Below are positions 6,122-28,255 of a stretch of DNA of 30,632 nucleotides, one piece after another. The DNA is from a virus, in the IMG/VR virus record IMGVR_UViG_3300037328_000122, positions 1 to 30,632 of that record. One strand, 5' to 3'. Within the stretch, counting starts at the first letter, position 1. Every line of letters starts with the position of its first letter. Both the position numbers and the translations under genes were made by a program. The notes beneath the pieces are model-generated. The model searched no databases and had not been told where the DNA came from. It saw only the letters and a list, made by a program, of their open reading frames with translations.

Positions 6122-6128
6122 AATAAAT

Positions 6129-7057: not shown

Positions 7058-7086
7058 ATTTATCAATAAATAATAAATATTAGTAT

Positions 7087-7640: not shown

Positions 7641-7663
7641 GATGAGAATACAATAAACAAAAC

Positions 7664-7707
7664 AGTACTTAAATATTTCGAGTACTGTCTTAAAAACTTT
7701 TTAAGTC
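7664..7707. repeat. Compound palindromic element, copy 1
   Basis: Two AGTACT arms (7664-7669, 7681-7686) flank a central AAATATTT. With flanking AC and GT the stem becomes 8 bp. A second near-perfect palindrome, CTTAAAAA-C-TTTTTAAG, follows at 7689-7705. The whole lies between two late genes, 6 bp before the ATG at 7714. A second copy lies at 29419-29460, where the 23-bp first part is the exact reverse complement of this one while the second part keeps the same orientation. It could act as a terminator, an RNA-processing hairpin or a protein-binding site. Confidence 0.85.
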
Positions 7708-7713
7708 TGGATA

Positions 7714-9603: not shown

Positions 9604-9605
9604 TT

Positions 9606-9860
9606 ATGGCAAACTTACCAAGATTTAAGAATATTCCAGAGCCACCGATTAAAGGCGATGTTAACAGTAGAAATCAAAATTGTTGTATAATAGCTTTAGG
9701 ATATTTAATAGATGCCTATGAACTCGAAATCATAGTATTTGAAGATCTTAAAGTAGATTCTATTGATGTACACAGAGATATTGAATTAACTATTAAAATC
9801 ACTACTTTAAAAGTGGTAATAAATGATTTAAAAAGAATCGTCATCCAAAAAAATCAATAA
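9606..9860 (+). CDS. Small hypothetical tail-cluster protein, 84 aa
   Basis: An 84-residue protein with a CC pair at 27-28 and a strand-rich C-terminal half (LTIKITTLKVVINDLKRIVI). It starts 3 bp after the preceding stop and overlaps the next gene by one base (TAATG). I do not recognise it. The tight packing marks it as a genuine member of the tail operon. Confidence 0.75.
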   Translation: MANLPRFKNIPEPPIKGDVNSRNQNCCIIALGYLIDAYELEIIVFEDLKVDSIDVHRDIELTIKITTLKVVINDLKRIVIQKNQ

Positions 9861-10228
9861 TGATAAAACCTTTAAAAACCGAAGCGAGTACAGACTATTT
9901 AAGCAATGATAAAACATTTGGAAATGATTTGTTAGAATCCGCAATTAAAGTTGCCGTTGATGCTTACATGGTAGTATTTAAGAAGAAATTACTCGAATCT
10001 TTGTCTAAACTTGGATTCTTATTTGAAAATGAATTTGAATTTGAAGATTTTTGTTCCAACAGGGTAGGGAGGGTAGAATATGAAGATAAACTTAAAGTAG
10101 ATTATTTTCTGGACTATGAACCACAGAAACCCGACTGCATTTTATTAATGACAACGGAAGAAAAAAGTGTTCAAATAAAACAACTCGAATCCTCAAACGG
10201 AATTATTTATAATGTTTTAATCGGATAA
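9860..10228 (+). CDS. Small hypothetical tail-cluster protein, 122 aa
   Basis: An acidic protein of 122 residues. It begins with a helix (LLESAIKVAVDAYMVVFKKKLLESLSKLGFLF written here as a description of residues about 25-55 is too long to quote fully; key parts are LLESAIKVAV and KKKLLESLSKL), followed by an acidic stretch EFEFEDF. A central amphipathic helix and several strands are likely. There is no TM segment. It is translationally coupled to the preceding gene. I do not recognise it. Confidence 0.75.
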   Translation: MIKPLKTEASTDYLSNDKTFGNDLLESAIKVAVDAYMVVFKKKLLESLSKLGFLFENEFEFEDFCSNRVGRVEYEDKLKVDYFLDYEPQKPDCILLMTTEEKSVQIKQLESSNGIIYNVLIG

Positions 10229-10237
10229 AATCTAAAA

Positions 10238-12835: not shown

Positions 12836-12845
12836 AAATAATAAT

Positions 12846-15800
12846 ATGGCAAACAAGACAATTGCTTTTGAAATAGAAGTACTTGGTCATTCAAAAACAG
12901 TCGAGAATATTGCCAAGGTAGAAGTAGCCTTGGCAAAAACATCCAAGGCGAAATCCGATTTAAAAAAGGAAATCAAGTCAGCAGATAAGGTCATAAGCCA
13001 ATATGACGACAACCTCAAAAAACTAACGGATTCTTATAAGGAATCCAACTCTAATTTAAAGTTATACGCCGATGCTCAAAGGAAAGTGGAGAAGCGTGTA
13101 AGAGATGGCAAAATGACAACTACCGAAGCGGACTCTGCACTGTTTAAGCTATCCAAAAGATTAAAGTCCAATATTGTATCGGAACAACAATATAATAAGG
13201 CTGTGAAGGCTTTGAACGACAGCAGAGATAAATCTAATCTCATTCTGTCCAAAGAAGAAACACAATTAAAAAAAATAATTGCAGAAACAAAGGTCTTACA
13301 GAATCAAAAAAAGTCACTAAACAAGGCTTTAAACGATGAGAGTAAGGCTTTGGAGAAAAATGTAGGCTCGATGTCGCATTTTCGAGTTGAAGTAAAGAAT
13401 CTTCAAGATGAATTGGATGGTCATGTGAAAGGAATTTCCATAACAAATAAGGCATATGACGAACTTTACAAAAAAGTTGGGGAAGGCAAAAAGAAAATAG
13501 TGGATTTTGATCAGGGTTTAAACGACGGAAGGTCAAACGTGGGAAGGTACAAAGACAGTTTGATGAACTTGGCTGGTGGCTTTGGTGACTTTGGCGGTTT
13601 AATTTCTGGACTTGGCAAAGGTGCTGCAACGGGTGCTATATTTGGGGCAATTGCTACTGGTGCCGTGGCAGCGGCAGTTAAGGTGAATGAATTGGTTTCC
13701 GAGTTTTCAGTATTTCGTGATAAAGTAGCTTTGTTAAGTAACGCCACAGGAGATGAATTGGATAAAATTGTGGTCCAAGTGGATAAAATTGCCAACACGT
13801 ATGGTAAGGAACAGGATGAACTATTGGAAGCTACCAAAAACTTTTCATTGCAATATGGAATATCTTTTTTAGAGGCATCGGAATTAATTGAGGGTGGCTT
13901 TCAAGGCGGTGCCGATGCGAGTGGTAAGTTTTTGGATTTGGTAAAGGAGTACCCATCGCAATTTAAAAATGCGGGTCTGTCTGCAAAGGATTTTATAGAT
14001 GCCGCAACTGCTAATGAACTCTTAGGATTTTATAATGACAAAGGAGTTGACGCAATAAAGGAGTTTGGACTTTCTGTCACCGAACAAAGTAAGACAACTG
14101 AAGATGCATTCCAAAAAGCTTTTGGAGTAGAATACGCAGATAAATTCTTCAAAGACATCAATGATGGAACCGTGTCTGTGGGGAGTAGTATAGAAGTTTT
14201 TGTTAAAAAGATTCGAGATTCTAATCTACCAATTAAAGAACAACAGACTTTAATTGCAGACGTGTTCAAAGGTGCTGGTGAGGATGCCGCAATCCTTTCT
14301 GAAGTCGGTCTTCAGTATCTTGAAACCGTAACTGATATGCGTAATGGTACTAAAGAATTGACAGTCGAACAACAGGCATATTTGGACAGAACCAATAATT
14401 TAGCGGATGCCAACGAACGACTATCTACTGCTAAAAATGAATTGACTAAATTACTGGCAGACGAGAGCGGTGCTTTTAACGTTTTGCAGACCGAGGCACA
14501 AGCCTTTTTAATAGAAACCCTCAATGAATTGATAGTCGCATTTTCGCCTGTCATTGAAACTTTTAAGGAGTTGTTTAGTAGCCTTGGCGAGTATTACTCA
14601 ATGCTATTCGATACGGGAGAAGCTACGGAGGGTGTATCGGATGAAGGCAGTATAATGGCAGAAGTTTTTGATGTAGTTGCTGGGGTGCTTACTTTTGTTG
14701 TGGATGTATTGACAAACGTTGTAGATGCCGTGTTGTGGGGAATTAAAAACATAGATCTATTATCATTTGCATTTGATTTGTTAAGAAATTATGTCCAAAA
14801 TTGGATGAACCTTCTCAAAAATCTACCCAATATTTTAAATGGTGTAATTGCTGGTGCTACTCAAATGAAGGACAATCTTATAAACGCCTTTAAGGATATT
14901 TTACTACAGATGGAAATCTTAAAACTGGAGGCAGAAAAACTTAATCCCTTTGGTAAGACGAGTGAAAATTTAGATAAAGAAATACTAAAACTAAAGGCAA
15001 AAAGAGTAGATATATTGCGTTCGGGCAAAAGTGTTGGCGAGGCATTTAAAGAAGGGTTCACTGGTAGTATAGATGACTTGGAAACTGAAAAGGCAGTTAG
15101 CAAGGCGAGTGCGGATGCGGCTGCAAAAGCTAAAGAGGATGCGGCAAAAGCCGAAGTTATGGAACAGAAGGCGATGGAAAAAGCCAAACTTACCAAAGCC
15201 GAAAATGAGAAGGCAGCGAAGGCAGCTGAAAAGAAAGCGAAGGCAGCTGAAAAGGAGGCTGAAAAACTTAAAAAAGAACAGGAGAAGAAAGCAGAAGAAA
15301 AGATTAAGGCAGCTGAAAAATTGGCGAGTGAATTACAAAAAATACAAAGAAAGGCAACAGAAGAAGAGTTAAAAAACCTCGAAGATGGAATAATAAAGGA
15401 CAAGAAATTAAAACAAGATAGATTCTCAAACGATATTGAAGACTTGAAACTCCAATTAATCAATAAGGAATCACTATCTAAAAATGAGATCCTTTTTAAC
15501 GAGTCAATTAATAAAATAATTGAGCAACGTGAAATAGAACATTCTAGCAACCTTTCTGACATTGATGAAAAATATGCTTTGAAGTCTAAAGCGGAAACAG
15601 AAAATTCTTATAAATTCAAAGCAGATAAACTGGATGACGAACTTGCCATTCAAAACAATTTTGCCCAACTTACAATAGTTGGGGAAGAAGAGTTGGCGGA
15701 AGCTAAAAAGAAAATTGCTTTAGATATTGCCAATCAAAAGTTAAAACTAATAAGAGCCGAGTTGGAATCTACAGGAGTATTGAATGAAGACCAATTAAGC

Positions 15801-16817
15801 CAACTGAAAAAATTGCAGTCCGAAATTCAATCCTTACAGGCACCTGTTAAGGCTACAGGATTCGTAAACAAAGCGAATGACTTTAGACAGGATTCGGGAA
15901 CTGCTATCAATACAGGCATTGGTAACTTGTTTGGTACGGATGAAGAAGGTGGTCAGCAAGTCAAAGATGCCGCAATTGGATTGGCAAATGACGTGTTTAA
16001 TGGAATATCGGATGCAAAGGCTGCCCAAATTCAAAGCCAATTACAACAGGACTTGGAATATTACAAGAGTCGTGCAGAAATGGAGTTACAGACTTTGGAT
16101 GCTCAAAAAGCAGCTGGATTAATTACTGAAGAAGAATACTCCAAAGGTAAGGAAGACATAGAAACCAGAGCCAGAGTGCAGTCCGAGAAAGCTAGTGAAA
16201 TAGCACTCGAAAAGGACAAGAAGTTAAAAAAACGAATGGCGGTAATAAATGCAGCGGCAGCCATTCTTACTGTATTGGCGACTACTCCATTTCCAGCTTC
16301 GCTTTTTGCAGCGGCAGCCATTGGAGTAAAGGCGGCTTTTGAAGTTGCGGCAATTGACAAAGCAGAAAAAGGTATGTACTTAGATACAGGTCGTCTTCAT
16401 AGCGAAGGTGGAGAATTAATCGAAATTGAAAAGGGGGAGGCAGTAATAAACCGAAAAGCTTTGGCATCAAAAGAAAGATTAAATCTAACAGGTACTCCAT
16501 TACAAATTGCAGATTCTTTAAACACTTACAAGGGTACAGGACGGAGTTTTTTGAAGGGTGCTGGAATAAAAGCCGTGGGAGGTAGATTACCAACTTTGGC
16601 AAATGGTGGCTTTAGTGGTAAGTTGCCAACTTCATTAACGCCACCATTTGTTCAACAACAGCAGATGAATAACAATAACATGAACAAATTTGGAGAGATG
16701 CTATCCGATAGAATTACTAAAGCGATTAATGATAAAAAAGTAATTGTGACGACTAAAGACATAATTGCAAAAACGGATGAGGTAGAACAGGTAAAAATAA
16801 ATTCTACATGGCTTTAG
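12846..16817 (+). CDS. Tail tape measure protein
   Basis: The frame is open from 12777, but the ATG at 12846 is preferred because it lies after the preceding stop and follows an AT-rich leader. The product has 1323 residues. It has long coiled-coil stretches (about 15-220 and 750-1000, including an Ala/Lys/Glu-rich block near 750-840). There is a Gly/Ala hydrophobic segment near 245-285 (GAIFGAIATGAVAAAV), more hydrophobic helices near 560-650, and an Ala-rich hydrophobic stretch near 1135-1170. The C-terminal motif SEGGELIEIEKGEAVINRKAL is characteristic of tape measures. The protein sets tail length and may insert in the host membrane during DNA entry. At about 0.15 nm per residue the tail would be near 200 nm. 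Confidence 0.93.
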   Translation: MANKTIAFEIEVLGHSKTVENIAKVEVALAKTSKAKSDLKKEIKSADKVISQYDDNLKKLTDSYKESNSNLKLYADAQRKVEKRVRDGKMTTTEADSALFKLSKRLKSNIVSEQQYNKAVKALNDSRDKSNLILSKEETQLKKIIAETKVLQNQKKSLNKALNDESKALEKNVGSMSHFRVEVKNLQDELDGHVKGISITNKAYDELYKKVGEGKKKIVDFDQGLNDGRSNVGRYKDSLMNLAGGFGDFGGLISGLGKGAATGAIFGAIATGAVAAAVKVNELVSEFSVFRDKVALLSNATGDELDKIVVQVDKIANTYGKEQDELLEATKNFSLQYGISFLEASELIEGGFQGGADASGKFLDLVKEYPSQFKNAGLSAKDFIDAATANELLGFYNDKGVDAIKEFGLSVTEQSKTTEDAFQKAFGVEYADKFFKDINDGTVSVGSSIEVFVKKIRDSNLPIKEQQTLIADVFKGAGEDAAILSEVGLQYLETVTDMRNGTKELTVEQQAYLDRTNNLADANERLSTAKNELTKLLADESGAFNVLQTEAQAFLIETLNELIVAFSPVIETFKELFSSLGEYYSMLFDTGEATEGVSDEGSIMAEVFDVVAGVLTFVVDVLTNVVDAVLWGIKNIDLLSFAFDLLRNYVQNWMNLLKNLPNILNGVIAGATQMKDNLINAFKDILLQMEILKLEAEKLNPFGKTSENLDKEILKLKAKRVDILRSGKSVGEAFKEGFTGSIDDLETEKAVSKASADAAAKAKEDAAKAEVMEQKAMEKAKLTKAENEKAAKAAEKKAKAAEKEAEKLKKEQEKKAEEKIKAAEKLASELQKIQRKATEEELKNLEDGIIKDKKLKQDRFSNDIEDLKLQLINKESLSKNEILFNESINKIIEQREIEHSSNLSDIDEKYALKSKAETENSYKFKADKLDDELAIQNNFAQLTIVGEEELAEAKKKIALDIANQKLKLIRAELESTGVLNEDQLSQLKKLQSEIQSLQAPVKATGFVNKANDFRQDSGTAINTGIGNLFGTDEEGGQQVKDAAIGLANDVFNGISDAKAAQIQSQLQQDLEYYKSRAEMELQTLDAQKAAGLITEEEYSKGKEDIETRARVQSEKASEIALEKDKKLKKRMAVINAAAAILTVLATTPFPASLFAAAAIGVKAAFEVAAIDKAEKGMYLDTGRLHSEGGELIEIEKGEAVINRKALASKERLNLTGTPLQIADSLNTYKGTGRSFLKGAGIKAVGGRLPTLANGGFSGKLPTSLTPPFVQQQQMNNNNMNKFGEMLSDRITKAINDKKVIVTTKDIIAKTDEVEQVKINSTWL

Positions 16818-17056
16818 AAACAAAGTATAAATCAATACTAACTGCCGCATCCTATGTACTTGGAGTAGAAATAAATGATGTTTCGCAATTATCGGACAGT
16901 CAATTGATATTCTTTAGTAGTCTGTCAAAATACGAGTTGAACCGTACCTTCATTCAGTCAGAGATTCTTCAAGGGCGATTTTATACGGAAATAGCTAATA
17001 AGTATAATGTGAGTAAAGAACACGTTAAGGATGTCGCAAATAGGCTTAAAAAGTAG
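16808..17056 (+). CDS. Small HTH-like protein at the end of the tail operon
   Basis: An 82-residue protein overlapping the tape measure gene by 10 bp. The C-terminal part (GRFYTEIANKYNVSKEHVK at about 56-74) has the spacing of a helix-turn-helix: helix, short turn around N-V-S, recognition helix. It could be a DNA-binding regulator or a packaging accessory. It is the last gene before an inverted repeat and a 240-bp non-coding gap, so it might control the head operon that follows. I do not recognise a family, and the HTH reading is by eye. Confidence 0.7.
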   Translation: MALETKYKSILTAASYVLGVEINDVSQLSDSQLIFFSSLSKYELNRTFIQSEILQGRFYTEIANKYNVSKEHVKDVANRLKK

Positions 17057-17090
17057 TTTAAAAGTGGATGTTCATCCAATAAAGTAAAAA

Positions 17091-17119
17091 TTTAGCCAAC
17101 AATAATTACGTTGGCTAAA
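17091..17119. terminator. Ten-bp hairpin after the tail operon
   Basis: TTTAGCCAAC (17091-17100) pairs perfectly with GTTGGCTAAA (17110-17119) around a 9-nt loop. On the plus strand only ATAAAC follows, so it is a poor U-tract terminator for the tail operon. On the minus strand TTTTTACTTT follows, which is canonical, yet no minus-strand gene is evident here. It could be bidirectional, or an RNA-stabilising 3' hairpin. Confidence 0.6.
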
Positions 17120-17298
17120 ATAAACACTTTAAAAATCGAATATTCAAAGGTATATTATTGTGTTTATTTTCGCAATATAATGTGGGAATAATTAAAAAAG
17201 GAGTGCAAACGTGCCTACTTAAATCAATATGCTTTTTTAGTGTGGGCGTATATTATCATATTTGTAAAACATTTTATAAAGTTCAATATCGAAAATTA
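17120..17298 (+). promoter_or_regulatory. Non-coding leader of the head operon with weak promoter candidates
   Basis: About 180 bp between the hairpin and the preferred protease start. TATTTTCG at 17164-17171 and TATTATTG at 17153-17160 each differ by one base from TAnnTTTG. No convincing TTG partner is seen. The protease frame remains open upstream to 17158, but that part encodes a cysteine- and tyrosine-rich sequence unlike a protease N-terminus, so it is treated as untranslated leader. Confidence 0.35.
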
Positions 17299-18360
17299 AT
17301 GAATAACGATACTAAAGGCAGTAGAAATGCAACCGCATTAGGGGTGAAAAATAAGAGGCTCGAAATTTCTGCAAACTTTAAAAAAGCGGAAAAGGCGGAA
17401 GGCGATGTAGATGGATTCATATACATAGAAGGCTACGCAAGTACGGACGAAATTGACAGACACGGTGATATAATTCCTCCATCCGCTTGGAATAAAAAAG
17501 CCTTGAAAAATTTCCGTGCGAATCCGATTGTATTATTTAATCACTCGCTTGATAAAGTCATTGGAAAAGTCGTGGAACTTTTGGTTGACGAGAAAGGACT
17601 TTTTGTAAAATGTGCAATTGACGTTTCAGATGTAGCCGGGCGGAAAATTTCAATGGGTCTGCTTAAAACTTTTTCAATCGGATTCTATCTTTTAGACTTT
17701 GACTACTCTCCAGAAAAAGAGGCTTGGATAATTAAAGAATTGGAGTTGTTAGAAGTTTCTGTCGTTTCAATACCAGCAAACCAAGGTGCTACTTTTTCAC
17801 TTGAAAAGCAGTTGGGAATTAATGAAGTTAAGGAATACAAAAAATCAATCTTAAAAGAGAATACTATGTCAAATGAAATGAGTGTTTGGGACAAATTTTG
17901 GGGAAAGGATGTAACTGAAGAGGCAGCAGTTTCCAAATTGGAAAAAATTAGCAACGCCAAAACAGCTTTAGAAGCTAAGGTTTCTGTCTTGGAAACTGAA
18001 AAGGCTACATTGGAAAATGAAAAGACCGCCTTGGAACTTGAAAAGACCACATTGCAAACTGAAAAGGCTGCTTTGGAAAATGAAAAGACTGCCTTTGGAA
18101 CTGAAAAGACTACTTTGGAAACTGAAAAGACCGCTTTGGAAACTGAAAAGGCTGCTTTGGAAACTGAAAAGGCTACATCCTTAACTGAAGTTGCTGCCTT
18201 GAAAGTAGAAGTGGATGCTTTGAAAGTCACCATCTCCAAAAACAAAGGATTAAAGAAACAAGTTGCTGGAGGGCAGGATCCGATTGTGAAAAAAGTACGA
18301 AAGTACAAAGGAAACGAGGCGGCATCGGAGTTGAATTACAAGGCTTTAATGAGCAGATAA
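17299..18360 (+). CDS. HK97-type prohead protease fused to coiled-coil scaffold-like region
   Basis: With the start at 17299 the protein has 353 residues. Residues about 20-170 match the HK97 prohead protease family (serine peptidase with a His-Ser-acidic triad). IYIEGYASTDEIDRHGDII opens the domain, FNHSLDKVIGK supplies the probable catalytic His (H82), LLKTFSIGF the Ser (S126), and LELLEVSVVSIPAN a nearby Glu (E149 or E152). Residues about 190-310 are a long coiled coil with a seven-residue repeat of the type LETEKAA, encoded by tandem 21-bp DNA repeats. The C-terminus is basic. The tail probably serves as the capsid scaffold, removed after assembly. An internal ATG at 17866 (Met190, MSNEMSVWDKFWG) could give a separate scaffold product. 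The major capsid gene follows. Confidence 0.88.
   Translation: MNNDTKGSRNATALGVKNKRLEISANFKKAEKAEGDVDGFIYIEGYASTDEIDRHGDIIPPSAWNKKALKNFRANPIVLFNHSLDKVIGKVVELLVDEKGLFVKCAIDVSDVAGRKISMGLLKTFSIGFYLLDFDYSPEKEAWIIKELELLEVSVVSIPANQGATFSLEKQLGINEVKEYKKSILKENTMSNEMSVWDKFWGKDVTEEAAVSKLEKISNAKTALEAKVSVLETEKATLENEKTALELEKTTLQTEKAALENEKTAFGTEKTTLETEKTALETEKAALETEKATSLTEVAALKVEVDALKVTISKNKGLKKQVAGGQDPIVKKVRKYKGNEAASELNYKALMSR
18004..18192 (+). repeat. Tandem 21-bp repeats encoding heptads
   Basis: Eight consecutive 21-bp units of the form gctgctttggaaactgaaaag (18004-18171), plus a ninth degenerate unit, encode the heptad A-A-L-E-T-E-K. The unit at 18088-18108 reads TAFGTEK because an extra T and a missing A compensate each other within the unit. 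The array could change length by slippage while staying in frame. Confidence 0.92.
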
Positions 18361-18420
18361 ATTCTTGTTTTCAGTTTTCAGTTTAGCTTTTAATATTATA
18401 AAGAAAAAAAATAATAAGTC

Positions 18421-19491
18421 ATGGCATTGGAATACAATGGAACTCTGGATTACAGCGGTGAGAATATAGAAGAATTATTCATTCAACCAGCTGAAGTAAT
18501 GATGTTACCTGAAGGGGTGACAATTTGGACAACTGTGGACAACGCAAAAAACCTAACTTACTTAGGAATTGCGGATGACAATGTTTACAAACGAACTAAA
18601 GGCTACATGGGTGGCGACTCTGGTGCTTTAATTCCTGTCAGAATTGTTTGTGAACGTTTCAAAAAAGAAATGTCTTTGGACTTAGATACTTACTTGGATC
18701 GAGTTCAAAGAAGATTATTGGCAAACAACCCCGGATTTGACATTGGTGACTTGGATGGTACCGACATCGAAGAGGCAGAAACAGGTATTTTACTTGAGGC
18801 GACCATGCGAGGCTTGATAAAGAATATGTGGTTGGGTGATAAGTCAAAGACACACGGTAGCGGTGGCAACTATGTAACTGGTGACTCATCTACTAGTTTT
18901 TCAAATGGAGATGGTGACAGACGTTACAACGCAATTGACGGTATTTGGACAGCCATTGTGGCATCGCAAAGTGAAACAGGCGGTGAAAAGGTGAAATTAT
19001 ACGCCTTGACAAACTCGGACGTAAATTCTGACCAGTCATTGAAAGATGACGTGGCACTTGCTTATTTCAAGAAGATGTATCGTAACGCAGACCGTATCTT
19101 AAAGTCTATTCCAGCAGTCGAATTGAGAATTTATGCGACTGATGAATTTAGAGAAAATTATGAGGACACGTTATCGGATTCGGACAGCTTGGATTCGAGT
19201 CGTACTGCTTTGGTTGATGGTATTGTTCGATTGACATATAAGGGCATTCCAATAGTACCCATGCCGATTGAAACCGCTCTCGAGGCAGACTTTGGAAACA
19301 GCAAAAGACACCGTGCGATTTTGTCAACACCTGGTAACTTATTTATGTTGTTTGGTTTGGGAACGCATACGGACGCACGTATTTGGACAAACTTGGATGA
19401 AGAGGAAAGACGTTCACGTTTGAATTTCGAGTTTAATGCTGGGTTTATTCATCCGCAATTGATTACAGGGACTTGGGGAGAGAATGCTTAA
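18421..19491 (+). CDS. Major capsid protein (HK97-like fold expected)
   Basis: A protein of 356 residues, directly downstream of the protease/scaffold gene and ended by the strongest terminator in the window, as expected for the most abundant virion protein. The sequence has the mixed alpha/beta character of Bacteroidota-phage capsids. It has an N-terminal arm, a stretch VTIWTTVDNAKNLTYLG, a probable axial region with LRIYATDEFRENYED and GIPIVPMPIE (I-P-I-V-P-M), and a C-terminal RRSRLNFEFNAGFIHPQLI motif resembling a capsid end. A long A-rich, probably unstructured leader precedes the ATG. Position and pattern support the call. Fold assignment is from family knowledge. Confidence 0.87.
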   Translation: MALEYNGTLDYSGENIEELFIQPAEVMMLPEGVTIWTTVDNAKNLTYLGIADDNVYKRTKGYMGGDSGALIPVRIVCERFKKEMSLDLDTYLDRVQRRLLANNPGFDIGDLDGTDIEEAETGILLEATMRGLIKNMWLGDKSKTHGSGGNYVTGDSSTSFSNGDGDRRYNAIDGIWTAIVASQSETGGEKVKLYALTNSDVNSDQSLKDDVALAYFKKMYRNADRILKSIPAVELRIYATDEFRENYEDTLSDSDSLDSSRTALVDGIVRLTYKGIPIVPMPIETALEADFGNSKRHRAILSTPGNLFMLFGLGTHTDARIWTNLDEEERRSRLNFEFNAGFIHPQLITGTWGENA

Positions 19492-19518
19492 TAAAGATTA
19501 GTTAAGAATACTTAGGAC

Positions 19519-19533
19519 TGATTTAATAAATCA
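19519..19533. repeat. 15-bp perfect palindrome upstream of the capsid terminator
   Basis: TGATTTA-A-TAAATCA is perfectly self-complementary around one base and lies 3 bp before the terminator stem. It is AT-rich, so chance is possible. It might stabilise the capsid mRNA 3' end. Confidence 0.5.
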
Positions 19534-19535
19534 TT

Positions 19536-19572
19536 AAGAGGCTTTAGGTGAGATTGCCTAAAGCCTCTTTTT
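19536..19572 (+). terminator. Strong intrinsic terminator after the capsid gene
   Basis: AAGAGGCTTTAGG (19536-19548) pairs perfectly with CCTAAAGCCTCTT (19557-19569) around an 8-nt loop, followed by a T-run through 19572. The next ATG is only 14 bp downstream and no promoter fits between them, so downstream genes (tail tube, portal, connector, fibre) probably depend on read-through. This would give excess capsid over portal. Confidence 0.93.
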
Positions 19573-19586
19573 AATATAAAAAAACA

Positions 19587-20120
19587 ATGTTATATTTATT
19601 AGCAGGATATTTAAAAAGTGCGGACTGTGGTGCTAGACGTTCTGGGGTCGCAATTATCTACTTAATTCAAGTGGTGGATCTAACGGAATTTACACTCTCT
19701 TCTGACTCAAGTGATTGGTCAGCGGTGACTCCTGTTACTGACAAAGTATTTAAAAAATACGAGTTCAAAAAAGGCGAAGCAGAATTATTGATGAACCCAA
19801 CTCCAGCTAATGGAATCGTGGCTTCAGAAAATTCCATTGAGTTTAATATGGATAAATTGTCTCAACTTTCGAGAGATGCCGTACAGGAAATTTCGGATGC
19901 CTCTAATTGTGGTTTAATTGCAATCGTAAAGACCAACCAAGGCGATAATTGGGTATTGGGGTACGACAACTACTTTCAAAAAGAGCACTACTTGGAGTTG
20001 ACGAGTGGCACAGGTACAAGTGGAAGGGCATTGACAGACCTACAAGGATTTGTTCTTACTTTGGCAAACACGTCACCAGAGTTACCTCGAACGTTTACAG
20101 GTTCTGTACCACTTACTTAA
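19587..20120 (+). CDS. Probable major tail (tube) protein
   Basis: A protein of 177 residues that begins MLYLLAGYLKSADCGARRSG. It has the compact beta-rich composition and size of siphovirus tail tube subunits. The C-terminal segment LELTSGTGTSGRALTDLQG, followed by an L-T-L strand, fits a pattern I recall in Bacteroidota tail proteins, in which a short Gly-rich turn precedes D-L-x-G. It lies directly after the capsid terminator, before the portal, an unusual place for a tube gene. A head decoration or minor virion protein is the main alternative. The cysteine at 14 might be structural. Confidence 0.5.
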   Translation: MLYLLAGYLKSADCGARRSGVAIIYLIQVVDLTEFTLSSDSSDWSAVTPVTDKVFKKYEFKKGEAELLMNPTPANGIVASENSIEFNMDKLSQLSRDAVQEISDASNCGLIAIVKTNQGDNWVLGYDNYFQKEHYLELTSGTGTSGRALTDLQGFVLTLANTSPELPRTFTGSVPLT

Positions 20121-20142
20121 TAGTAAAATAAAATAAATTTAT

Positions 20143-20373
20143 ATGGCAGATGTAACATATAAAATTCCATTAGAAATGCAAGGTTTGAGGGTTTTCGCTC
20201 GACCTTGCGAATGGAATAAGTCTGGAGTCTTCTTGTTAGATTCTAATTTGACGCAAAAAGATTTAAGATATTTAAAAGAAGTTATTGGCTACCCAATAGA
20301 AGTAGTCAAGAAACCTATCGTTCAAAAAAAGAAAAAAGTAGATGCGGCAAAAGACAAAGACATTTCAGATTAA
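20143..20373 (+). CDS. Small basic hypothetical protein, 76 aa
   Basis: A protein of 76 residues, with a folded-looking N-terminal part (about 1-55, containing FARPCEWNKSGVFLLDS) and a lysine-rich tail (VQKKKKVDAAKDKD). Its end overlaps the portal gene by 32 bp in another frame, so the two are probably translationally linked. I do not recognise the family. Position suggests a head or neck accessory. Confidence 0.7.
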   Translation: MADVTYKIPLEMQGLRVFARPCEWNKSGVFLLDSNLTQKDLRYLKEVIGYPIEVVKKPIVQKKKKVDAAKDKDISD

Positions 20374-21544
20374 TAGTTCTAAAGTCCCCGTTGCAACGCC
20401 AGATTCTCTAATTTCTGAACGGCTTATAAAAAGGTTTGGAGTAATTCCTTTTGGGTCTGATAATCTTTTCCCACAAGCCATTGCGGCTTTAAACAGGAAA
20501 AGTGGAGTTCATAGAGGTATATTAAATAAGAAGATGAACTTCATTGGCGGACATGGTTTTCGTACTGAAGACGAAAACCTATTCGAGTGGACTAAAAATG
20601 TAAATTCGAGTGGTCAAAGTTTGACAGAGGTTTTAAGGAATCTAATTTTAGATAGGTTATCGGATGGTAACGCCTACTTGGAATTTATAACGAATAGTAA
20701 TAATGAATTTCTGAACCTTGAGCACCATGACCACACGACAGTAAGAATTTCTGAAGATAAATTGGGCTTTGTAATAAAAGCAAACTGGAGAGATAAAAGA
20801 AGCTTACCAGAGTACTTACCAAAATTCCCTTATGTATCGGATGCGAATAGTGATGGAATAATTAGGACTATGGTTCATATTAAGAGTTATGAACCCGAGT
20901 TTGTTAATTATGGCATAATGGATTGGGTAGCTGGTTTGGATGCCTCAGCGATAGCATATAAGACAAACAGATGGAATATCGCAAGGCTTGATAATAGTTT
21001 TCAGTCAAGTGGAATAATGATGGTGTCTGGAGAGTTTGAAAGCGAAGAGGCAAGTTTGGAACTAAAAAACGAACTTGAGGCAGAGTATAGTGGAGAAGAT
21101 ATGCAGGGGAAAGTCGTCTTCATAGTTTCGGACTTGGATGGTAAGCAATCTAAATTTATCCCTATTGAACAAAAGTTTGAAGGTGATTGGCATAAAATGT
21201 CTGAAGAAGCAATTAGGGAGTTAATATCGGCTCATAGTTGGTACCGCTCTTTGATGTCGTTAGGTGACTCAAATGGATTCGATAAGGACAAGATTCTTAA
21301 TGAATACAACATGGCTTTGCTAGATACCATACTGCCAGAACAAAATTTGATGTTAAGTCCAATTAAACTTGCGTTGAATACTATTTTAGGCATTGATGCA
21401 ACCAATTTGACCTTTATAAATAAGTCACCAGTAAAGTCAGAACTTGATAAATTCCTTAAAGTTTGGGAAGCTAGAGCAGAGCGAGGTTTGCCTTATGATG
21501 AAGAAGATGAAATGCAAAAGAAATTCTTATTTGAAGTTATGTAA
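20342..21544 (+). CDS. Portal protein (HK97-type)
   Basis: A protein of 400 residues with the layout of HK97-type portals. The N-terminal region has SDNLFPQAIAALNRKSGVHR, where a 'chain of residues tested on either side of the membrane' is not involved. The sequence NKKMNFIGGHGF, the NLILDRLSDGNAYLEF motif (a core strand with D-G-N-A-Y), and a C-terminal region with long helices (MALLDTILPEQNLMLSPI) follow. The portal is the dodecameric ring through which DNA enters, and it binds TerL and the connectors. Location after the capsid and more than 15 kb from the terminase is atypical. Start at 20342 gives a 32-bp overlap with the small gene upstream. Confidence 0.85.
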   Translation: MRQKTKTFQINSSKVPVATPDSLISERLIKRFGVIPFGSDNLFPQAIAALNRKSGVHRGILNKKMNFIGGHGFRTEDENLFEWTKNVNSSGQSLTEVLRNLILDRLSDGNAYLEFITNSNNEFLNLEHHDHTTVRISEDKLGFVIKANWRDKRSLPEYLPKFPYVSDANSDGIIRTMVHIKSYEPEFVNYGIMDWVAGLDASAIAYKTNRWNIARLDNSFQSSGIMMVSGEFESEEASLELKNELEAEYSGEDMQGKVVFIVSDLDGKQSKFIPIEQKFEGDWHKMSEEAIRELISAHSWYRSLMSLGDSNGFDKDKILNEYNMALLDTILPEQNLMLSPIKLALNTILGIDATNLTFINKSPVKSELDKFLKVWEARAERGLPYDEEDEMQKKFLFEVM

Positions 21545-21555
21545 AAACAAAGTCA

Positions 21556-22131
21556 ATGGTTCTATTAATTACGGCAGATGAGATAGTGACATTATCTTTT
21601 ATCGAAGGCAGAAATTTTAACAGTGCAAAGATTCAAGATAGTGAAATTCTGACTACTCAATATGAGTGGATTCGACCAATATTAGGAAAGGATTTTTACA
21701 ACTTACTTTTAGTCGAAGTTGGGACAGAAAACTTGTCATCCGAAAATACTACTCTATTGGATGACTTTATCAAGCCTTGCCTTGCTTATTATGTAAAATA
21801 TAGAATACTGCCTAAATTGATGTTACAACTTACCAACAAAGGCGGACAGAAGGCGAACAGCGAGTATTCGGAAACTATTACCTCTGGTGAAAGGAATGAG
21901 AAGAGAGATTCGGAAAAGTTGACAGCAGATGGACTTAGGACTATCTTAGTGGACTTTTTAAACGATAATGAGAATGACTATCCATTGTTTGAACAAACCT
22001 ATCAAAAAGGTAAGAAGTCAACCCGGGGAGGATTCATTTTAAGGAAAAGGAATTTAATCAAAAGGCGATGCAATTGCGGCAATGGTAATTGTAACGTCTG
22101 CAATCAAAATGATGAATGTTATGATTACTAA
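21556..22131 (+). CDS. Head-tail connector-like protein with Cys-rich C-terminus
   Basis: A protein of 191 residues that is largely helical. It has an N-terminal part (VLLITADEIVTLSFIEGRNF) and a central segment LDDFIKPCLAYYVKYRIL that fits the helical bundle of gp6-type head-tail adaptors, which stack below the portal. A Bacteroidota-phage adaptor family (I recall DUF6712) has this shape, but I cannot verify the match. The last 25 residues are unusual: RRCNCGNGNCNVCNQNDEC, five Cys in C-x-C-x4-C-x2-C-x5-C spacing, a possible metal-binding or disulphide cap. The gene directly follows the portal and overlaps the next gene by 11 bp. Confidence 0.7.
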   Translation: MVLLITADEIVTLSFIEGRNFNSAKIQDSEILTTQYEWIRPILGKDFYNLLLVEVGTENLSSENTTLLDDFIKPCLAYYVKYRILPKLMLQLTNKGGQKANSEYSETITSGERNEKRDSEKLTADGLRTILVDFLNDNENDYPLFEQTYQKGKKSTRGGFILRKRNLIKRRCNCGNGNCNVCNQNDECYDY

Positions 22132-22597
22132 AATAGAAAAGACTAAAAAGGGTAATTTGCTTTTGAGAAATGCGAGTGACATTATTTTATATATTTTGCC
22201 TCCCCACCCAATTTTACTTCCAAAAGTTGGTACGGTAGATACAATATCTATTTGTGAAAGTTTGGGACATAGAAATAATGTGGATGTTAAGGCATCGGAT
22301 ATTACACACTTCAACGGAGTCGCAAAAACTTTCACTACTCAAGAACTTTTAAGCAAGTTGGAAACTGTCCAAAGGGTTGGTCTTTTTGGTGATTACGTGG
22401 ATTCTTATACGGATTCAAGGTTTCAATTACAACAGGATTACGTGGAACCGTCTGAAATACAAATGATAAAAACAACCATAACAGGCAGTCAAATTTTAAG
22501 AGAATTTTATTTAACTAAAGTTGAAGATTTATCACAAATTTCTACACTTTGGACAAATAGAGATTCTGACATTTATGATAATTTGATAAATTTATAG
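22121..22597 (+). CDS. Hypothetical head/neck protein, 158 aa
   Basis: The frame is open from 22082, but the ATG at 22121 gives a shorter overlap (11 bp) with the connector gene and a cleaner N-terminus (MITKIEKTKKGNLLLRNASD). The protein is mixed alpha/beta, with a strand-rich N-terminal half containing PKVGTVDTISICESLGHRNN and a helical C-terminal part. There is no TM segment or cysteine cluster. Its position after portal and connector, two bases before the fibre gene, suggests a neck or tail-interface role. I do not recognise it. Confidence 0.7.
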   Translation: MITKIEKTKKGNLLLRNASDIILYILPPHPILLPKVGTVDTISICESLGHRNNVDVKASDITHFNGVAKTFTTQELLSKLETVQRVGLFGDYVDSYTDSRFQLQQDYVEPSEIQMIKTTITGSQILREFYLTKVEDLSQISTLWTNRDSDIYDNLINL

Positions 22598-22598: not shown

Positions 22599-25500
22599 AT
22601 GAGAAAATCACCATTTACATTCCGAAATAACAAGCTTCCCGAGTCTATCTTATCAAGGTATCGGATGCAAAAGTTGGGGAAGGTTTCTGAAAAATATTGG
22701 GAAGATGAAGTTGGCGATTATCATGGAATCCAACACGAAAAATACGTTTATGATTTTGATGGGGTAGATAGTATCTTGTCTTTAGGTTCGGGATTAGTAA
22801 TAAGTGGGGAGTTTGAAGTAAATGTAGTTTTTAGAATTACAACAGACCCATCTGACTTAGCTTATTTATTTACGTCTGGAGGAATTTTAGATAGTTTGTT
22901 TGTCTTAAATAGTGGTCTTTTTATGCGACTAGGGGGTATTCAAATAACTACAAACATAGCAGTAATTGTAGATGAGTGGCAATCGCTAAAAATAACTAGG
23001 GGTTCGGACAATGTAGTTAAGGTATATTCAAACAACTTATTAACGGCATCTTCTGTAAAAACAGCCGATTTAAAAATTAGTCAAATAGGCGGACTAACCT
23101 CTTCAAACGCTTACTTAGAAATGGAACTCGCTAAATTTACAGTGAGTAACGGAATTGATACTTTATTAAATTACAATTGCGAAGAGCAAGTTGGTACAAT
23201 TGCTTTCGATAGTTCGGGAGAAAAAAATCATGGTGCTTTTGTTGGCGGTGTGACACATACAACGGCTAAAGTAATGCCGCAGCCGTTTTTGAAATCTTTT
23301 TATAATTTTGATGGAACAGATGGTTATTTAGAATCGGATGATGTACTTAACGGAACAGTTACTGATTTTGATATTAGCTTTTCAATGAAAACCTCAGACA
23401 CAGACGGATTTGTATTGGGAAGTTTTAAAGGTGCTACTGCTCAGCGTTCATTATTTGTTGGTACTTATAATGGCAATTTTCAAATAATTTTAAATGCTAT
23501 TGGGCAGAGTTGGGGTAACTATACCCAAAATTACGATGATGCTAATATTGTTAATTCAGAATGGTCAAATTACAGAATTGTATTCGATGGGACTATTCTA
23601 AATTTTTATCAAAATGGTATTTTAAAGACTCCAGATTCAACAAGTGGTAATATACCGTCTTCTATTTACGATAATAGTATTCCCTTTTCGATTGGCGGAC
23701 GGACGGGGTACACCACAAATTGTATGGAAATGCAACTTTCAGATTTTGTTGTAAAAAGTGGTGGTGTTACTTTGCTTCATGCACGTTTAAATGAAGGTCA
23801 TGGAACAGTAGCATACGATTCTTCGGGAAATGACAACCATTTAGATTTTATTGGTGGCATTACGCACGTAGATATAGCTTCGACTTATTCTAATGAAGCG
23901 TATAGTGCTGTCACTTCATTGCAAGGTAATGCCCATTATAGTTGTGGCACGGTAACTATTGGCTCTAATGTGACGTGGGAAGCGGAAGTTGATATTGTTA
24001 TAAATAAATTCGTAGATTACATAACACCTTTTGGTTTTGGTGACTTTGCATCGGGTATAGGTATGTTTATAAACTATACAGCCGATTTAAGAGCATTTTC
24101 TAAAGATCAAGGTGGGAATTTCACTAGAGTAGTGCAAGATGTTATTAATAAGCTAACTAAATTTACGTATGGTTTTAACGGAACTGATTTATACGTAAAC
24201 GTAAATGGAATTCGTGTATCTACTCTTGTTCCTACAACAAGTCAGTCAAATTCTAGGACAGGAAATTTAGAAATTAACCAACAAACTTTAAGTCGAAATG
24301 GATTGAATGTAAAAAATGTCAAATTCACTATAAATAATGTTTTAGTTCGTCATTATCAAAACATAGTTCCAAGTGCAACACTAATCGACTTGACAGGCAA
24401 CGAGAATGCTACCGCAACAAACGGACAAGGTGATTTGGTTATCATACCAACTTCTGCTGAAAATCAAAGTAAAGATATTTTTGGTGAGCCGTTAAACTTT
24501 GCAGCCGAAGTTAAAAAGGTTTTGTCCGTTAATCATACAAATGAATTTGGGTATAGCAATGGCGTAAATATGTTAAAATATAGCGAAGATTTTACAGCCA
24601 GAATCCCTGGCTCAGGTTGGTATAATCAAACTGTAAATGGTGGAAATGCTGCTTTAGTAACTAATGATTATGCTAATGACCCAAATGGAAATAACACTGC
24701 AAAAAGACTTCAAGCTTCTTTTTCAAACACAGGAGGAGATGATATTTCTTTAGTTAATCAGATTTTAACTACATACATATCAAACCAACAAGTTGTTTTT
24801 TCGATTTGGATAAAGTCTAATACTGCGTCTAATCAAACTGTTTTAATTCGTGTAGGTAATGAGCCAAATACATTTACAGCAAACCAAACGTGGCAAAAAA
24901 TAGAAAGTTTATCTGATGGAGCACAGAATGTTATAGTTAAAATAGGACTAAGAAGGCTTATTAAAGCTTCTCAAACCTCATTAGATATATTGATTTGGCA
25001 ACCACAATTACAGGCAGGTTTAACTTCTACTCCTTACCAGAAAACAGGAGTTGATAGTAATATAGGCGTAATTATACCTTGTGACGAAGCCAACATTACA
25101 AAAGATGTACTAGGAAACGACTTACAGTTTTCGGGACAGGTGGCGAGTGATATGGAGTTATTAAACAGTAATTGCATTGAACTGGACGGCACGGACGGTT
25201 ACGCAACTTCAATAGACCTTGGTGTAAACAAGTTAGTTGATGAAGTAGAATTTTTCGCTTACAGTGCAACTGAAATTACAGGTTCTTCTTCGCCAAAGTG
25301 GGTTTTAGGTACATATACTCAACAAAATGTTCCGTATCGAGGTCTAATATTTGGCAATTTTGGCGGTGCTTTGACAGGTCAAGTTTTTTCAGTTGGAAAT
25401 GACGGAAGAAGAACAGCGTCAAACGAAAATATTTCAGCAGGAACACATTTTTATAAAGTAGTTTGGAATAATGATATTACAGATTATGATATTTATATTG

Positions 25501-26645
25501 ATGGTAATAAAAAAAGCACAATAAATGACAGAGGAACGGCTATAAAATTGAACGTTCGTAAGTTTTGGGTTGGTTGTAGGTCTGCAATTGAAAACTACTT
25601 TGAGGGAAAAATATTTGGTCTAAAAATTACATCGGGTGCAGAAGTTATTGAATTTCCAATTTCCGAGGGCAACGGCACAACGTCCTATCAAAAAGAAAAC
25701 CAAGCGGGAGATATTAGTTGGTTTGGAGGTGCGACTTGGGCAACTCAAGATTCGTTTCACCATAACATTAATGAAGGCTTTAATTTTGCACCTTATTTTG
25801 ATGGGCTTACAAGTAAAGTTGTTTTTGATTCTTTTGATTTAAGGAACGCCACTTTTAGAATGAAGTTTATATATAATGAAAATGCTCCAGAAGCACAAAT
25901 AATCTCTTTATATGATAATAGCAATTCAGCAAGAATATTGAATGCTACTATGAATGTAACGTTAGGTGGTGCTAACAACGATTTTGTTATACAGTTAAGA
26001 GATTTATCACAGAATAATTTAGGAAGTGCTGCTTGGAATGGATTACTTACAGGAGAAGTATATGAATTAGTAGTTAAATTTGATAGTACAGCAGATGATT
26101 TTGTTATAAAAACTTTAAATGGTGTAACTTCTACAATTACTACAGTTATTAGTAGAGGTGCAGGTACACAAACAGCTGATACATTCTATTTAGGAATTAG
26201 AATCGCAGGTGCTTTTCCATTTAATGGTACAATATTTAGTTGCGAAATCGTTGGTTTACATAAATGGGAAGGCATAAATAATTGGGTCGATTCTATTGGA
26301 AATAATAATGGCATTGTAACGAATCCATTAACCGTAAAACTGCCTTTCAAAATTGGTGGAAAATTTACGAACCCTCCGTGCAAAGGTCTTAACGGAGCAG
26401 AAACAGAATTACGGCAAACTGTCTTTAGAGAAGGCTTGGCAGCTTCACAATTGCATTTTGACGCATCCGATTTGTCAAGTAATGTAATTGGATATGAAGA
26501 GATTATAAACAGCTCTAGCGAAGTCTTTATTGACGAAGGATTGAATAACAAAAGCAACGTTGAAACATTTATAAATTTTGAACACGTAACTTTATCAAAT
26601 AGAAAGGAACATGGACTACGTAGTAATAAAAATTCCAAGTATTGA
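22599..26645 (+). CDS. Giant multi-LamG fibre/receptor-binding candidate
   Basis: A protein of 1348 residues built from repeated concanavalin/LamG-like beta-sandwich modules. Four or five modules are suggested, beginning near 48 (KYVYDFDGVDSILSLG), 233 (SFYNFDGTDGYLESDD), about 440, 858 (NCIELDGTDGYATSIDLG) and 1064 (PYFDGLTSKVVFDSFD). The linkers carry the recurring signature F-D-S-S-G-x-x-N-H (202-211 and 406-414). Residues about 655-815 (NMLKYSEDFTARIPGSGWYN and following) resemble a carbohydrate-binding-like module common in phage tail proteins. LamG modules generally bind glycans, so a receptor-binding fibre or virion adhesin is inferred. No trimerisation or chaperone segment is recognised. 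The part encoding residues about 1130-1240 uses TTA leucine codons almost exclusively. Confidence 0.85.
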   Translation: MRKSPFTFRNNKLPESILSRYRMQKLGKVSEKYWEDEVGDYHGIQHEKYVYDFDGVDSILSLGSGLVISGEFEVNVVFRITTDPSDLAYLFTSGGILDSLFVLNSGLFMRLGGIQITTNIAVIVDEWQSLKITRGSDNVVKVYSNNLLTASSVKTADLKISQIGGLTSSNAYLEMELAKFTVSNGIDTLLNYNCEEQVGTIAFDSSGEKNHGAFVGGVTHTTAKVMPQPFLKSFYNFDGTDGYLESDDVLNGTVTDFDISFSMKTSDTDGFVLGSFKGATAQRSLFVGTYNGNFQIILNAIGQSWGNYTQNYDDANIVNSEWSNYRIVFDGTILNFYQNGILKTPDSTSGNIPSSIYDNSIPFSIGGRTGYTTNCMEMQLSDFVVKSGGVTLLHARLNEGHGTVAYDSSGNDNHLDFIGGITHVDIASTYSNEAYSAVTSLQGNAHYSCGTVTIGSNVTWEAEVDIVINKFVDYITPFGFGDFASGIGMFINYTADLRAFSKDQGGNFTRVVQDVINKLTKFTYGFNGTDLYVNVNGIRVSTLVPTTSQSNSRTGNLEINQQTLSRNGLNVKNVKFTINNVLVRHYQNIVPSATLIDLTGNENATATNGQGDLVIIPTSAENQSKDIFGEPLNFAAEVKKVLSVNHTNEFGYSNGVNMLKYSEDFTARIPGSGWYNQTVNGGNAALVTNDYANDPNGNNTAKRLQASFSNTGGDDISLVNQILTTYISNQQVVFSIWIKSNTASNQTVLIRVGNEPNTFTANQTWQKIESLSDGAQNVIVKIGLRRLIKASQTSLDILIWQPQLQAGLTSTPYQKTGVDSNIGVIIPCDEANITKDVLGNDLQFSGQVASDMELLNSNCIELDGTDGYATSIDLGVNKLVDEVEFFAYSATEITGSSSPKWVLGTYTQQNVPYRGLIFGNFGGALTGQVFSVGNDGRRTASNENISAGTHFYKVVWNNDITDYDIYIDGNKKSTINDRGTAIKLNVRKFWVGCRSAIENYFEGKIFGLKITSGAEVIEFPISEGNGTTSYQKENQAGDISWFGGATWATQDSFHHNINEGFNFAPYFDGLTSKVVFDSFDLRNATFRMKFIYNENAPEAQIISLYDNSNSARILNATMNVTLGGANNDFVIQLRDLSQNNLGSAAWNGLLTGEVYELVVKFDSTADDFVIKTLNGVTSTITTVISRGAGTQTADTFYLGIRIAGAFPFNGTIFSCEIVGLHKWEGINNWVDSIGNNNGIVTNPLTVKLPFKIGGKFTNPPCKGLNGAETELRQTVFREGLAASQLHFDASDLSSNVIGYEEIINSSSEVFIDEGLNNKSNVETFINFEHVTLSNRKEHGLRSNKNSKY

Positions 26646-27138
26646 ATTGTTAACGAATCAATTGATAATTAATTTATCAAGTAAGAGTCTAAGTCTGGGT
26701 GCGAGGGTTGAAGGTTCAGAAGGTGGAGTCACGACTTATGGCAATATAGGCAATCATGGTTTGACTTACTCGATCCTAACTTACTCGGTTGTTAAGGACA
26801 TAATAGATTTGGGTGGCAACGTATTAAATTATAGAAGCTTCATAGAAGTTGATTTGGATGCAAACGTGCCAAGTTATATTCGTGAATTTGAGGTTATTGA
26901 TGAAGACGGTGAAACTATCAATTTATCTTGGGGAGATTGGGTTCATACAAACCAACCCCCGGCTTTAATTGATGGAAAGTATTACATTTCTGGGTACGGC
27001 CGTTATGCTGGTTTTTCTTCTTTAGATAAGCCTAAAATGCATCTTGATGGAATAGAGTTGTGTTCTCTAATTGCAGATGGGTACAACGTTTTGAACAAAG
27101 ACCAATTTATCACATTAAAAGAGTCACAAGATTCTTAA
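26611..27138 (+). CDS. Fibre-associated hypothetical protein, 175 aa
   Basis: The gene overlaps the end of the LamG gene by 35 bp in another frame and produces a beta-rich 175-residue protein. The central part has N-W-x-W-like and Gly/Tyr-rich strands (LSWGDWVHTNQPPALIDGK, then YYISGYGRYAGF). Position and overlap suggest it works with the fibre, as a tip, cap or assembly factor. I do not recognise the family. The overlap makes translational coupling likely. Confidence 0.7.
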   Translation: MDYVVIKIPSIELLTNQLIINLSSKSLSLGARVEGSEGGVTTYGNIGNHGLTYSILTYSVVKDIIDLGGNVLNYRSFIEVDLDANVPSYIREFEVIDEDGETINLSWGDWVHTNQPPALIDGKYYISGYGRYAGFSSLDKPKMHLDGIELCSLIADGYNVLNKDQFITLKESQDS

Positions 27139-27510: not shown

Positions 27511-27852
27511 ATGAGTGAATTTGATTTGTTAATGAAGATTTTTGGCAGCCTTGCGGCAACGGTTGCCGTAATAGTTGGAATATATAAGGCACTTAGTTTA
27601 TTTAAGAACGACAAAGCCACAAGTGCTAATGAAGTAACTGATAAGCTACTTAATGACCTTCTGTTATTGCGTGAAAACTTTGCAAATTTTAGTAAAGAAA
27701 CACATGAATTGAATACTTCTCAAAATATAAAAATTCGAGAATTAGAAAAATGTAAGGATGAGCTCAAATTGAATAATGAAGAATTAACAGATAAGGTACG
27801 TTTGTTGGAACAGGAACTCGAAATATTAAAAAATGCAGACAAAAATAGGTGA
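27511..27852 (+). CDS. Single-TM coiled-coil protein, 113 aa
   Basis: One TM helix near the N-terminus (about 11-30, FGSLAATVAVIVGIYKAL) followed by a soluble coiled coil (about 45-110) rich in Leu, Glu and Lys (LRENFANFSKETHELN, then LEQELEILK). The arrangement resembles small accessory membrane proteins in lysis modules, such as holin partners or haemolysin-like proteins, but no family is recognised. It is preceded by a 53-bp A-rich gap and overlaps the cupin gene by 20 bp. Confidence 0.65.
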   Translation: MSEFDLLMKIFGSLAATVAVIVGIYKALSLFKNDKATSANEVTDKLLNDLLLLRENFANFSKETHELNTSQNIKIRELEKCKDELKLNNEELTDKVRLLEQELEILKNADKNR

Positions 27853-28255
27853 TGTAATTTCGGACTTTAATAATGAGATATTTATTGAAAGAGAAAAAAT
27901 TGCAAGGTTGAAGCAATGCAATGACTTCATTTGGAATCCTTATGGAGAGGCAGCGGAGTGGTGTAATTTGAAGTCCTACTCTAAAGCTATGGAAACGAAA
28001 TCTTGTCTTTTCCGTTCTAAAGACAATTACAAGATGGAATCTCATATACACAGGAATAGTTATGAACGTGTGACGGTAGAAACAGAAGCTTGTGAATTAA
28101 TTTTATTCTTAATAACTGGTGAACAAATTTCTATGAAGTATAACGATACTTTTGTAATACCGAAAGGAGTTTTTCACATTTTGTGGATTAAAACGGCAGG
28201 CACTTTGAAGTTGGACTTTGATAATGGAATAGATTTAATTAACCATTTTAAATGA
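27833..28255 (+). CDS. Cupin-domain protein
   Basis: A protein of 140 residues with both conserved cupin motifs. The first is HIHRNSYE (H71, H73, E78: H-x-H-x4-E). The second is PKGVFH (P110, G112, H115: P-x-G-x2-H). These are the metal-binding positions of the small beta-barrel fold, so a metal-binding beta-barrel is likely. Substrate and reaction cannot be deduced: cupins include enzymes, sugar-binding proteins and regulators. An N-terminal region of about 60 residues (KIGDVISDFNNEIFIEREK and following) has no known match. It is placed among lysis-type membrane genes, overlapping the preceding gene by 20 bp, an uncommon position for a cupin. Confidence 0.85.
   Translation: MQTKIGDVISDFNNEIFIEREKIARLKQCNDFIWNPYGEAAEWCNLKSYSKAMETKSCLFRSKDNYKMESHIHRNSYERVTVETEACELILFLITGEQISMKYNDTFVIPKGVFHILWIKTAGTLKLDFDNGIDLINHFK

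Follow-up and report, generated by a model that had tools for sequence, protein, structure and literature searches.

Phage host range is thought to shift mainly via point mutation, exchange of fibre tips or diversity-generating systems. Domain shuffling in phage receptor-binding proteins (RBPs) is established, and Smug et al. 2023 (PMC10684548) describe domains swapped between fibres that otherwise match, also across distant phages. Some tail fibres are reported to contain concanavalin A-like domains (PMC11058221), others have a beads-on-a-string build (PMC11042391), and fibre chaperones without kin that are encoded downstream of the fibre are known as well (PMC7289586). Here we compare with these systems a fibre gene from a complete IMG/VR virus record (IMGVR_UViG_3300037328_000122), the whole of which, 30,632 bases, is referred to as the window. 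The gene is a single uninterrupted open reading frame (ORF) on the plus strand (22599-26645; 1348 amino acids (aa)), and its ORF, Pfam matches and hidden Markov model (HMM) matches identify it as a mosaic of LamG-like and carbohydrate-binding module (CBM)-like parts. Because the large terminase of the window has 35-40% identity with its counterparts in Flavobacterium phage 11b, Cellulophaga phage phi10:1, the Polaribacter phages P12002L/S and several Bacteroides phages, we assign the window, on this kinship, to a tailed phage of Bacteroidota. We consider it likely that the gene encodes a receptor-binding fibre of a tailed phage that belongs to a slot-and-linker family, that the ORF following it encodes a probable assembly partner, that the pair spreads as a cassette, and that modules are exchanged between linkers.

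In the mosaic RBPs, going by the consulted passages of PMC10684548, exchange concerns the C-terminus or a single domain, whereas here successive slots lie between ordered, recurring linkers and one module seems to occur in two different slots; LamG goes unmentioned in that paper, as do laminin, lectin and concanavalin. Eleven other fibres from eight records (L denotes loci, G genomes or contigs) are related to the window fibre and have up to four conserved linkers, or joints, in fixed order with differing modules in the slots. Scans with LamG1/2 and with the segment from linker II to LamG4 gave the same-build fibres L010, L038 (on a contig of a Robiginitomaculum metagenome-assembled genome), L039, L040, L042, L043, and L044. 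The joint consensus sequences are DSSGNxNHGTITNATxSTFH...NxxGY (I), IPRDESxxxxDVLGNxLQYTGxV (II), TTQDVFHHNIxxGF (III), and TNPxxxGHNxAET (IV). This order is kept in seven of the eight fibres compared; L044 lacks I and II, and L039 carries III-IV twice. Depending on the relative, the slots hold LamG-like, CBM4-like or short beta modules, or nothing. Mean pairwise identity is 0.53, 0.49, and 0.43 for joints I, II, and III and 0.20 for the two modules compared, a contrast that is partly circular since the linker windows were chosen by eye for conservation.

The window fibre has linkers I to IV in order. Linker I occurs in two copies, FDSSGEKNH (23184-23282; independent E-value (i-E) 4.7e-8 with a model built without the window) and YDSSGNDNH (23793-23873; i-E 1.4e-7). 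These two literal copies, at residues 204 and 407, are what stands of the initial annotation's claim that an FDSSGxxNH linker is shared by four or five modules; elsewhere the joints are altered. Linker II (IPCDEANITKDVLGNDLQFSGQV...; 25065-25205) was located by an HMM built without the window, which recovers aa 825-869 with an i-E of 3.2e-21, and a weak match at aa 615-640 (24441-24518; i-E 0.012) marks a degenerate second linker II. Comparison with the relatives places linker III (ATQDSFHHNINEGF) at about aa 1040-1065 (25716-25793) and linker IV (TNPPCKGLNGAETE), together with the C-terminal domain, at 26343-26642. A seven-member linker II profile matched only two of 385 alphaproteobacterial genomes, namely G001, a member of the model, and G140, a non-member, in three places; among 398 Pseudomonadota genomes only G001 was matched. 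The slot between joints I and II illustrates how contents vary: in the window it holds the region aa 428-612 and a CBM-like module, in L039 a CBM-like module that alone is weakly recognised by the external HMM (2.5e-4), and in L043 no module, the distance from joint to joint being 53 residues.

Two data sets give direct evidence of exchange, with entire modules differing where the rest of the fibres matches. On contig G006, fibre L040 lies at the contig end and the 3' part of fibre L054 at the contig start, and the two match over two flanks, one of 280 nucleotides (nt; 85.7% identity) and one of 271 nt (91.1%). Between these flanks, in slot III-IV, one has a CBM-like module (i-E 1.5e-7) and the other an unrelated module. 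L040 and L054 may represent genes in tandem, variants within the population or a product of assembly; the contig ends of G006 do not overlap, which gives no backing to a circular map that would place L054 after L040. The alphaproteobacterial G140 carries, on a 1.66-Mb contig, two fibres in tandem, A and B (L055), and a third, C (L061), 217 kb away; slot by slot, the three are mosaics of one another. The first LamG is 85% identical between the B and C proteins and 26% between A and C, slot III-IV is 72% identical between A and C and 23% between B and C, and the C-terminus is 92% identical between A and B and 52% between A and C, while the joints are 51-72% identical for every pair. Slot III-IV holds a LamG in A (by Pfam) and a CBM-like module in B (7.5e-6), and the slot I-II module of A is closest to the slot II-III module of C (46% over 176 aa, 1.9e-51). 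Module exchange, once with a change of slot, is the simplest account of these sequences.

Within the window fibre, LamG1 (aa 50-195; 22746-23183) and LamG2 (aa 231-398; 23289-23792) are 32-33% identical in alignment. Laminin_G_3 (PF13385) matched the whole fibre with 30.7 bits, above the cut-off of 27.6, in two stretches of which the best is 238-371, in LamG2. As cut-out regions, LamG2 (26.3 bits) and LamG4 (aa 870-1039; 25206-25715; 22.5 bits, E 1.4e-4) both fell under this cut-off, and LamG1 gave no Pfam match. Two of the five cut-out regions, and not all five, reached an E-value below 0.001 to Laminin_G_3. LamG4, a probable LamG-like module, was aligned with L010 and L038. The initial annotation had proposed four or five LamG sandwiches; of these we regard LamG1 and LamG2 as sure and LamG4 as probable, while its third (aa 428-612; 23880-24434), a probable beta module with no family match and a poor model, and its last (aa 1066-1248, in slot III-IV; 25794-26342), for which the fold assignment has neither family nor model support, are unproven. 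The structure model of residues 425-1348 has a mean predicted local distance difference test score (pLDDT) of 47.3 and is poor outside the CBM module; because of this, we assign no fold to aa 428-612, 870-1039, and 1066-1248. The fibre resembles Laminin_G_3 proteins in LamG1 and LamG2 with their DSSG joint and differs from them in that only part of it is LamG, the other slots holding other modules. Self-BLAST found no internal repeats in the fibre, and further weak Pfam matches among its regions were to CVNH, Cellulase, InlK, and MACPF (E 0.006 to 0.22). A sequence search of the PDB with the fibre gave only weak matches to T4 lysozyme at 632-687 (best E 0.21), which we take as chance.

The different beta module that had been noted at about 655-815 is placed at about aa 652-822 (24552-25064) by locus scans, an external HMM and the structure model. 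An HMM built from 13 other phage loci only finds it in the window at 656-816 with an i-E of 2.1e-24, and it is the only portion of the fibre for which the model is good, with pLDDT block means mostly of 62-94. The model superimposes (VIA-align) on the tail fibre of Pseudomonas phage Pa193 (9b45_1; Z 16.1, 2.2 A, 149 residues), the E217 tail fibre (8env; Z 14.1), and a xylan-binding CBM4-2 module (2y6j; Z 12.9), so that, where fold is concerned, the wording "carbohydrate-binding-like" was right (Z up to 16.1). Matches to binary-toxin receptor domains and others were read only as the shared common sandwich fold. The Pa193 and E217 fibres, as described in PMC11042391, are likewise beads-on-a-string with one bead of this fold; they differ in belonging to contractile-tail Pseudomonas phages, in being 20% identical to the CBM module over about 150 residues, and in that no LamG array or linker set was seen in the described parts. 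Other phage proteins often contain this module: scanning with an alignment of five members gave 27 viral loci, some on contigs repeated from the first scan, and many CBM-module loci are of high G+C and lie in proteins otherwise unlike the window fibre. In several relatives CBM-like modules fill a slot, so we do not see the CBM-like part as an isolated insertion in a LamG fibre. The idea of a mosaic fibre of several modules, one of them carbohydrate-binding-like, is borne out, more strongly by the relatives than by the window alone.

Codon use had been offered as an independent clue, the last LamG-like region being rich in TTA leucine codons. TTA accounts for 12 of 16 leucine codons in region 1063-1248 and for 53 of 98 in the whole fibre gene, an excess that is not significant (P = 0.057 for this region alone; 0.77 allowing any run of 16 leucines). 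In each of the seven modules tested, the choice among synonymous codons agrees with that of the gene as a whole (permutation P 0.06 to 0.97), and on these tests we reject codon bias as evidence that the last module had its own origin. Slot III-IV, the position of the last module, is nonetheless a swap site in the relatives. Uniform codon use together with a single history of all modules would have spoken against mosaicism; codon use is indeed uniform but module histories differ between relatives, and because of this the mosaic claim survives while the codon clue falls.

Directly after the fibre gene, and overlapping it by 35 nt, lies an ORF of 175 aa on the plus strand (26611-27138), which we refer to as the partner and which probably encodes a fibre-assembly or fibre-tip protein. 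The partner family has a size of 130-200 aa. The window partner is 42% identical to that of L039 over 187 aa (2e-43), and homologues are also present in L038 (1e-7) and L010. These four were used to build an HMM, which was run on 2274 ORF segments from 43 sequences. Leave-one-out recovered each member (E 7e-23 for the window and 2.1e-7, 1.1e-10, and 9.5e-27 for the others), and the HMM matched, besides its members, only the ORFs immediately 3' of the fibre in L042 (3.1e-10), L044 (1.3e-7), and, weakly, L043 (0.017), and one fragment in L042 that is given below; partners that are in no model also adjoin the 3' end of the fibre in L054 (7.6e-20) and L061 (2e-6). Excluding L040, in which the contig ends 12 nt after the fibre, and L007, which runs off its contig, the partner is directly 3' of the fibre in nine of ten testable loci, with gaps of -35 to +11 nt. 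We also observed a partner-like fragment upstream of the fibre in L042 (6518-6769; E 0.037, or 2.4e-7 with a profile containing the L042 partner), perhaps a remnant of an earlier cassette.

A described counterpart of this arrangement is gp26/gp27 of Alteromonas phage V22. According to PMC7289586, a protein of similar size, gp27, directly follows the fibre, is needed for binding, and lacks kinship to T4 gp38 or Mu Tfa; it differs in having DUF4376, whereas our partners match nothing in Pfam, and gp26 is not described there as a LamG array. The partner did not match the profiles of known chaperones (Tfa, gp38, V22 gp27 / DUF4376), and neither Pfam nor PHROG gave a match beyond noise: in Pfam the window partner had none at E up to 1, the L010, L038, L042, L043, and L044 partners none up to 0.5, and the L039 partner noise only (E 0.035 and 0.22). 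In the partner model (pLDDT 79.8) only the first half is ferredoxin-like (Z up to 6.1, unspecific); no PDB or viral structure matched at E below 0.001, and no known chaperone was among the matches listed, which excludes nothing. The lack of a family match and of clear structural kin beyond this unspecific half would fit a protein of its own, with a structural or lysis-related role, that is only a neighbour of the fibre. We regard such a protein as rather unlikely, as the short gaps after the fibre recur in nine loci, in phages without the window's terminase and portal, and the partner profile matches the same two of the 385 genomes as the linker II profile, one of which (G001) is a member of the model.

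The distribution of the pair supports its spread as a cassette. Between the window and 16.7 kb around L039, only four ORFs are common, namely the ORF directly upstream of the fibre (22082-22597, plus strand; 27% over 162 aa, E 3e-14), the fibre, the partner, and a plus-strand ORF at 27833-28255 (27% over 118 aa, E 1e-9). The window terminase and portal had matches in none of the six other fibre-bearing virus records and in the single sister record, G751 (L002), which is 95-100% identical over most shared ORFs. The fibre and partner pair occurs, then, in phages without detectable terminase or portal kinship to those of the window. G751 has no fibre match and its contig ends near window position 22,128, 470 bases before the fibre start; such a break would be expected were the fibre locus variable among the strains sampled, while a single break proves nothing.

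Several observations weigh against the interpretation of the pair as a receptor-binding fibre with its partner in a modular family. In the window, only the CBM and the first two LamG folds are established; aa 428-612 and 1066-1248 have no Pfam match beyond noise and poor models. The L043 partner, counted among the nine, is weak (0.017), and the tandem fibres of L055 have no downstream partner, a partner-like ORF lying upstream (5.5e-7). Divergence of the C-terminus and of the partner is only weakly correlated (r 0.50, Mantel P 0.017, eight loci, uncertain alignment). No kin of the fibre was found by tblastn in 50,697 phage records, and tblastn of the annotated phage collection with the CBM module alone, the L039 fibre and partner, and the L010 fibre likewise gave no kin. 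Viral-contig scans with the whole fibre, ORF 22082, and a three-partner alignment gave no relative, noting that these scans need short conserved peptides and do not measure the partner's spread. Finally, the fibre gene lies 3' of portal/connector genes and not of the tape measure gene, pointing to a possible head or neck fibre.

A head or neck decoration fibre near the portal, which would bind glycans and give weak general adhesion to mucus or a cell surface, is in our view improbable. The genes for the protease (17158), a probable capsid protein, and the portal (20342) and the ORFs at 21556 and 22082 precede the fibre, with the tape measure gene further upstream (12777), and ORF 22082 adjoins the fibre in L039 as well, all of which agree with such a location. 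In L010, L038, L040, and L061, however, the fibre is near the end of the structural genes, as tail fibres would be, an M15-peptidase-like ORF (by eye) is close to it in L010, L038, and L061, and the partner pattern is reminiscent of tail fibre chaperones. Slow divergence of an old LamG array, in which the linkers would be conserved edge strands and the slot differences decay, is very improbable: internal modules just 13-34% identical among relatives, linkers picked by eye so that their higher identity is partly circular, and the DSSGNxNH motif, which is commonly found beside LamG domains, count for it, but G140 mixes 85% identity in one slot with 26% in the next and the matching G006 flanks enclose unrelated modules, neither of which uniform decay can produce and both of which contradict it unless they are assembly artefacts; moreover, one and the same slot can hold either of two folds, CBM or LamG.

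Returning to a receptor-binding fibre, possibly trimeric, with exchangeable modules, the N-terminal segment (aa 1-49; 22599-22745), which by blastp is shared only with L039, is a probable virion anchor, and these some 50 residues would fix the fibre to the virion. The sandwich modules, judging from their fold, would bind host-surface glycans, and the C-terminal domain past joint IV would form a constant end, with the partner acting on it either as a chaperone like V22 gp27 or as a bound tip or cap, as gene order and size suggest. Recombination may exchange modules, which would be tolerable owing to the conserved joints, and exchange between joints may alter receptor specificity. Based on fold and gene position, the fibre is a reasonable best candidate for a host-range determinant. 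Tentatively, we also envisage a further-reaching scheme in which the linkers are standard connectors that provide both mechanical compatibility and landing sites for recombination; phages and prophages next to them could trade single beads into any slot or move them between slots, the partner would recognise only the constant C-terminus, any combination of beads would fold, and the pair would act as a host-range plug-in across phyla.

Shuffled domains and fibre chaperones encoded downstream both have precedents. No description of a LamG/CBM fibre family that combines ordered linkers with such a partner was found in the open-licence literature, covered mostly by title and start of abstract. If our interpretation is true, interchangeable internal slots with constant joints would explain how attachment modules come to be common to very different phages; the fibres would also offer natural examples with visible exchange points, and the partner ORFs would define a new family of candidate fibre partners.

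We made additional observations in the relatives and around the fibre gene. In L043, a second ORF (10319-11557) right after the partner has, by eye, a short N-terminal start like that of the L043 fibre, which suggests another fibre using the same anchor. Outside the linker family, L008/L009 (5875-8126) encode adjoining small single LamG proteins of 215-267 aa after capsid-like genes, on viral contigs that may come from hot springs or similar habitats. In the window, the ORF at 27833-28255, which lies on the same side of the fibre as in L039, has the look of a small cupin, by eye only, and is odd in a block of late genes. Immediately 5' of the fibre are, in order, the portal gene, a gene for a DUF6712 protein (21556), and the small ORF 22082; the record also has tail genes other than the fibre. 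The gene order in 3893-22131 is unusual, with the terminase gene (3893) followed by tail genes including the tape measure gene, and the head genes, for the protease, a probable capsid protein (18421), the portal and the DUF6712 protein, coming only after the tail genes. The head protease ORF (17158-18360) has a coiled, repeat-rich C-terminal stretch with LETEKAALE-like repeats, and the near-identical sister phage L002 has 14 extra residues over this ORF (L002 6736-8016).

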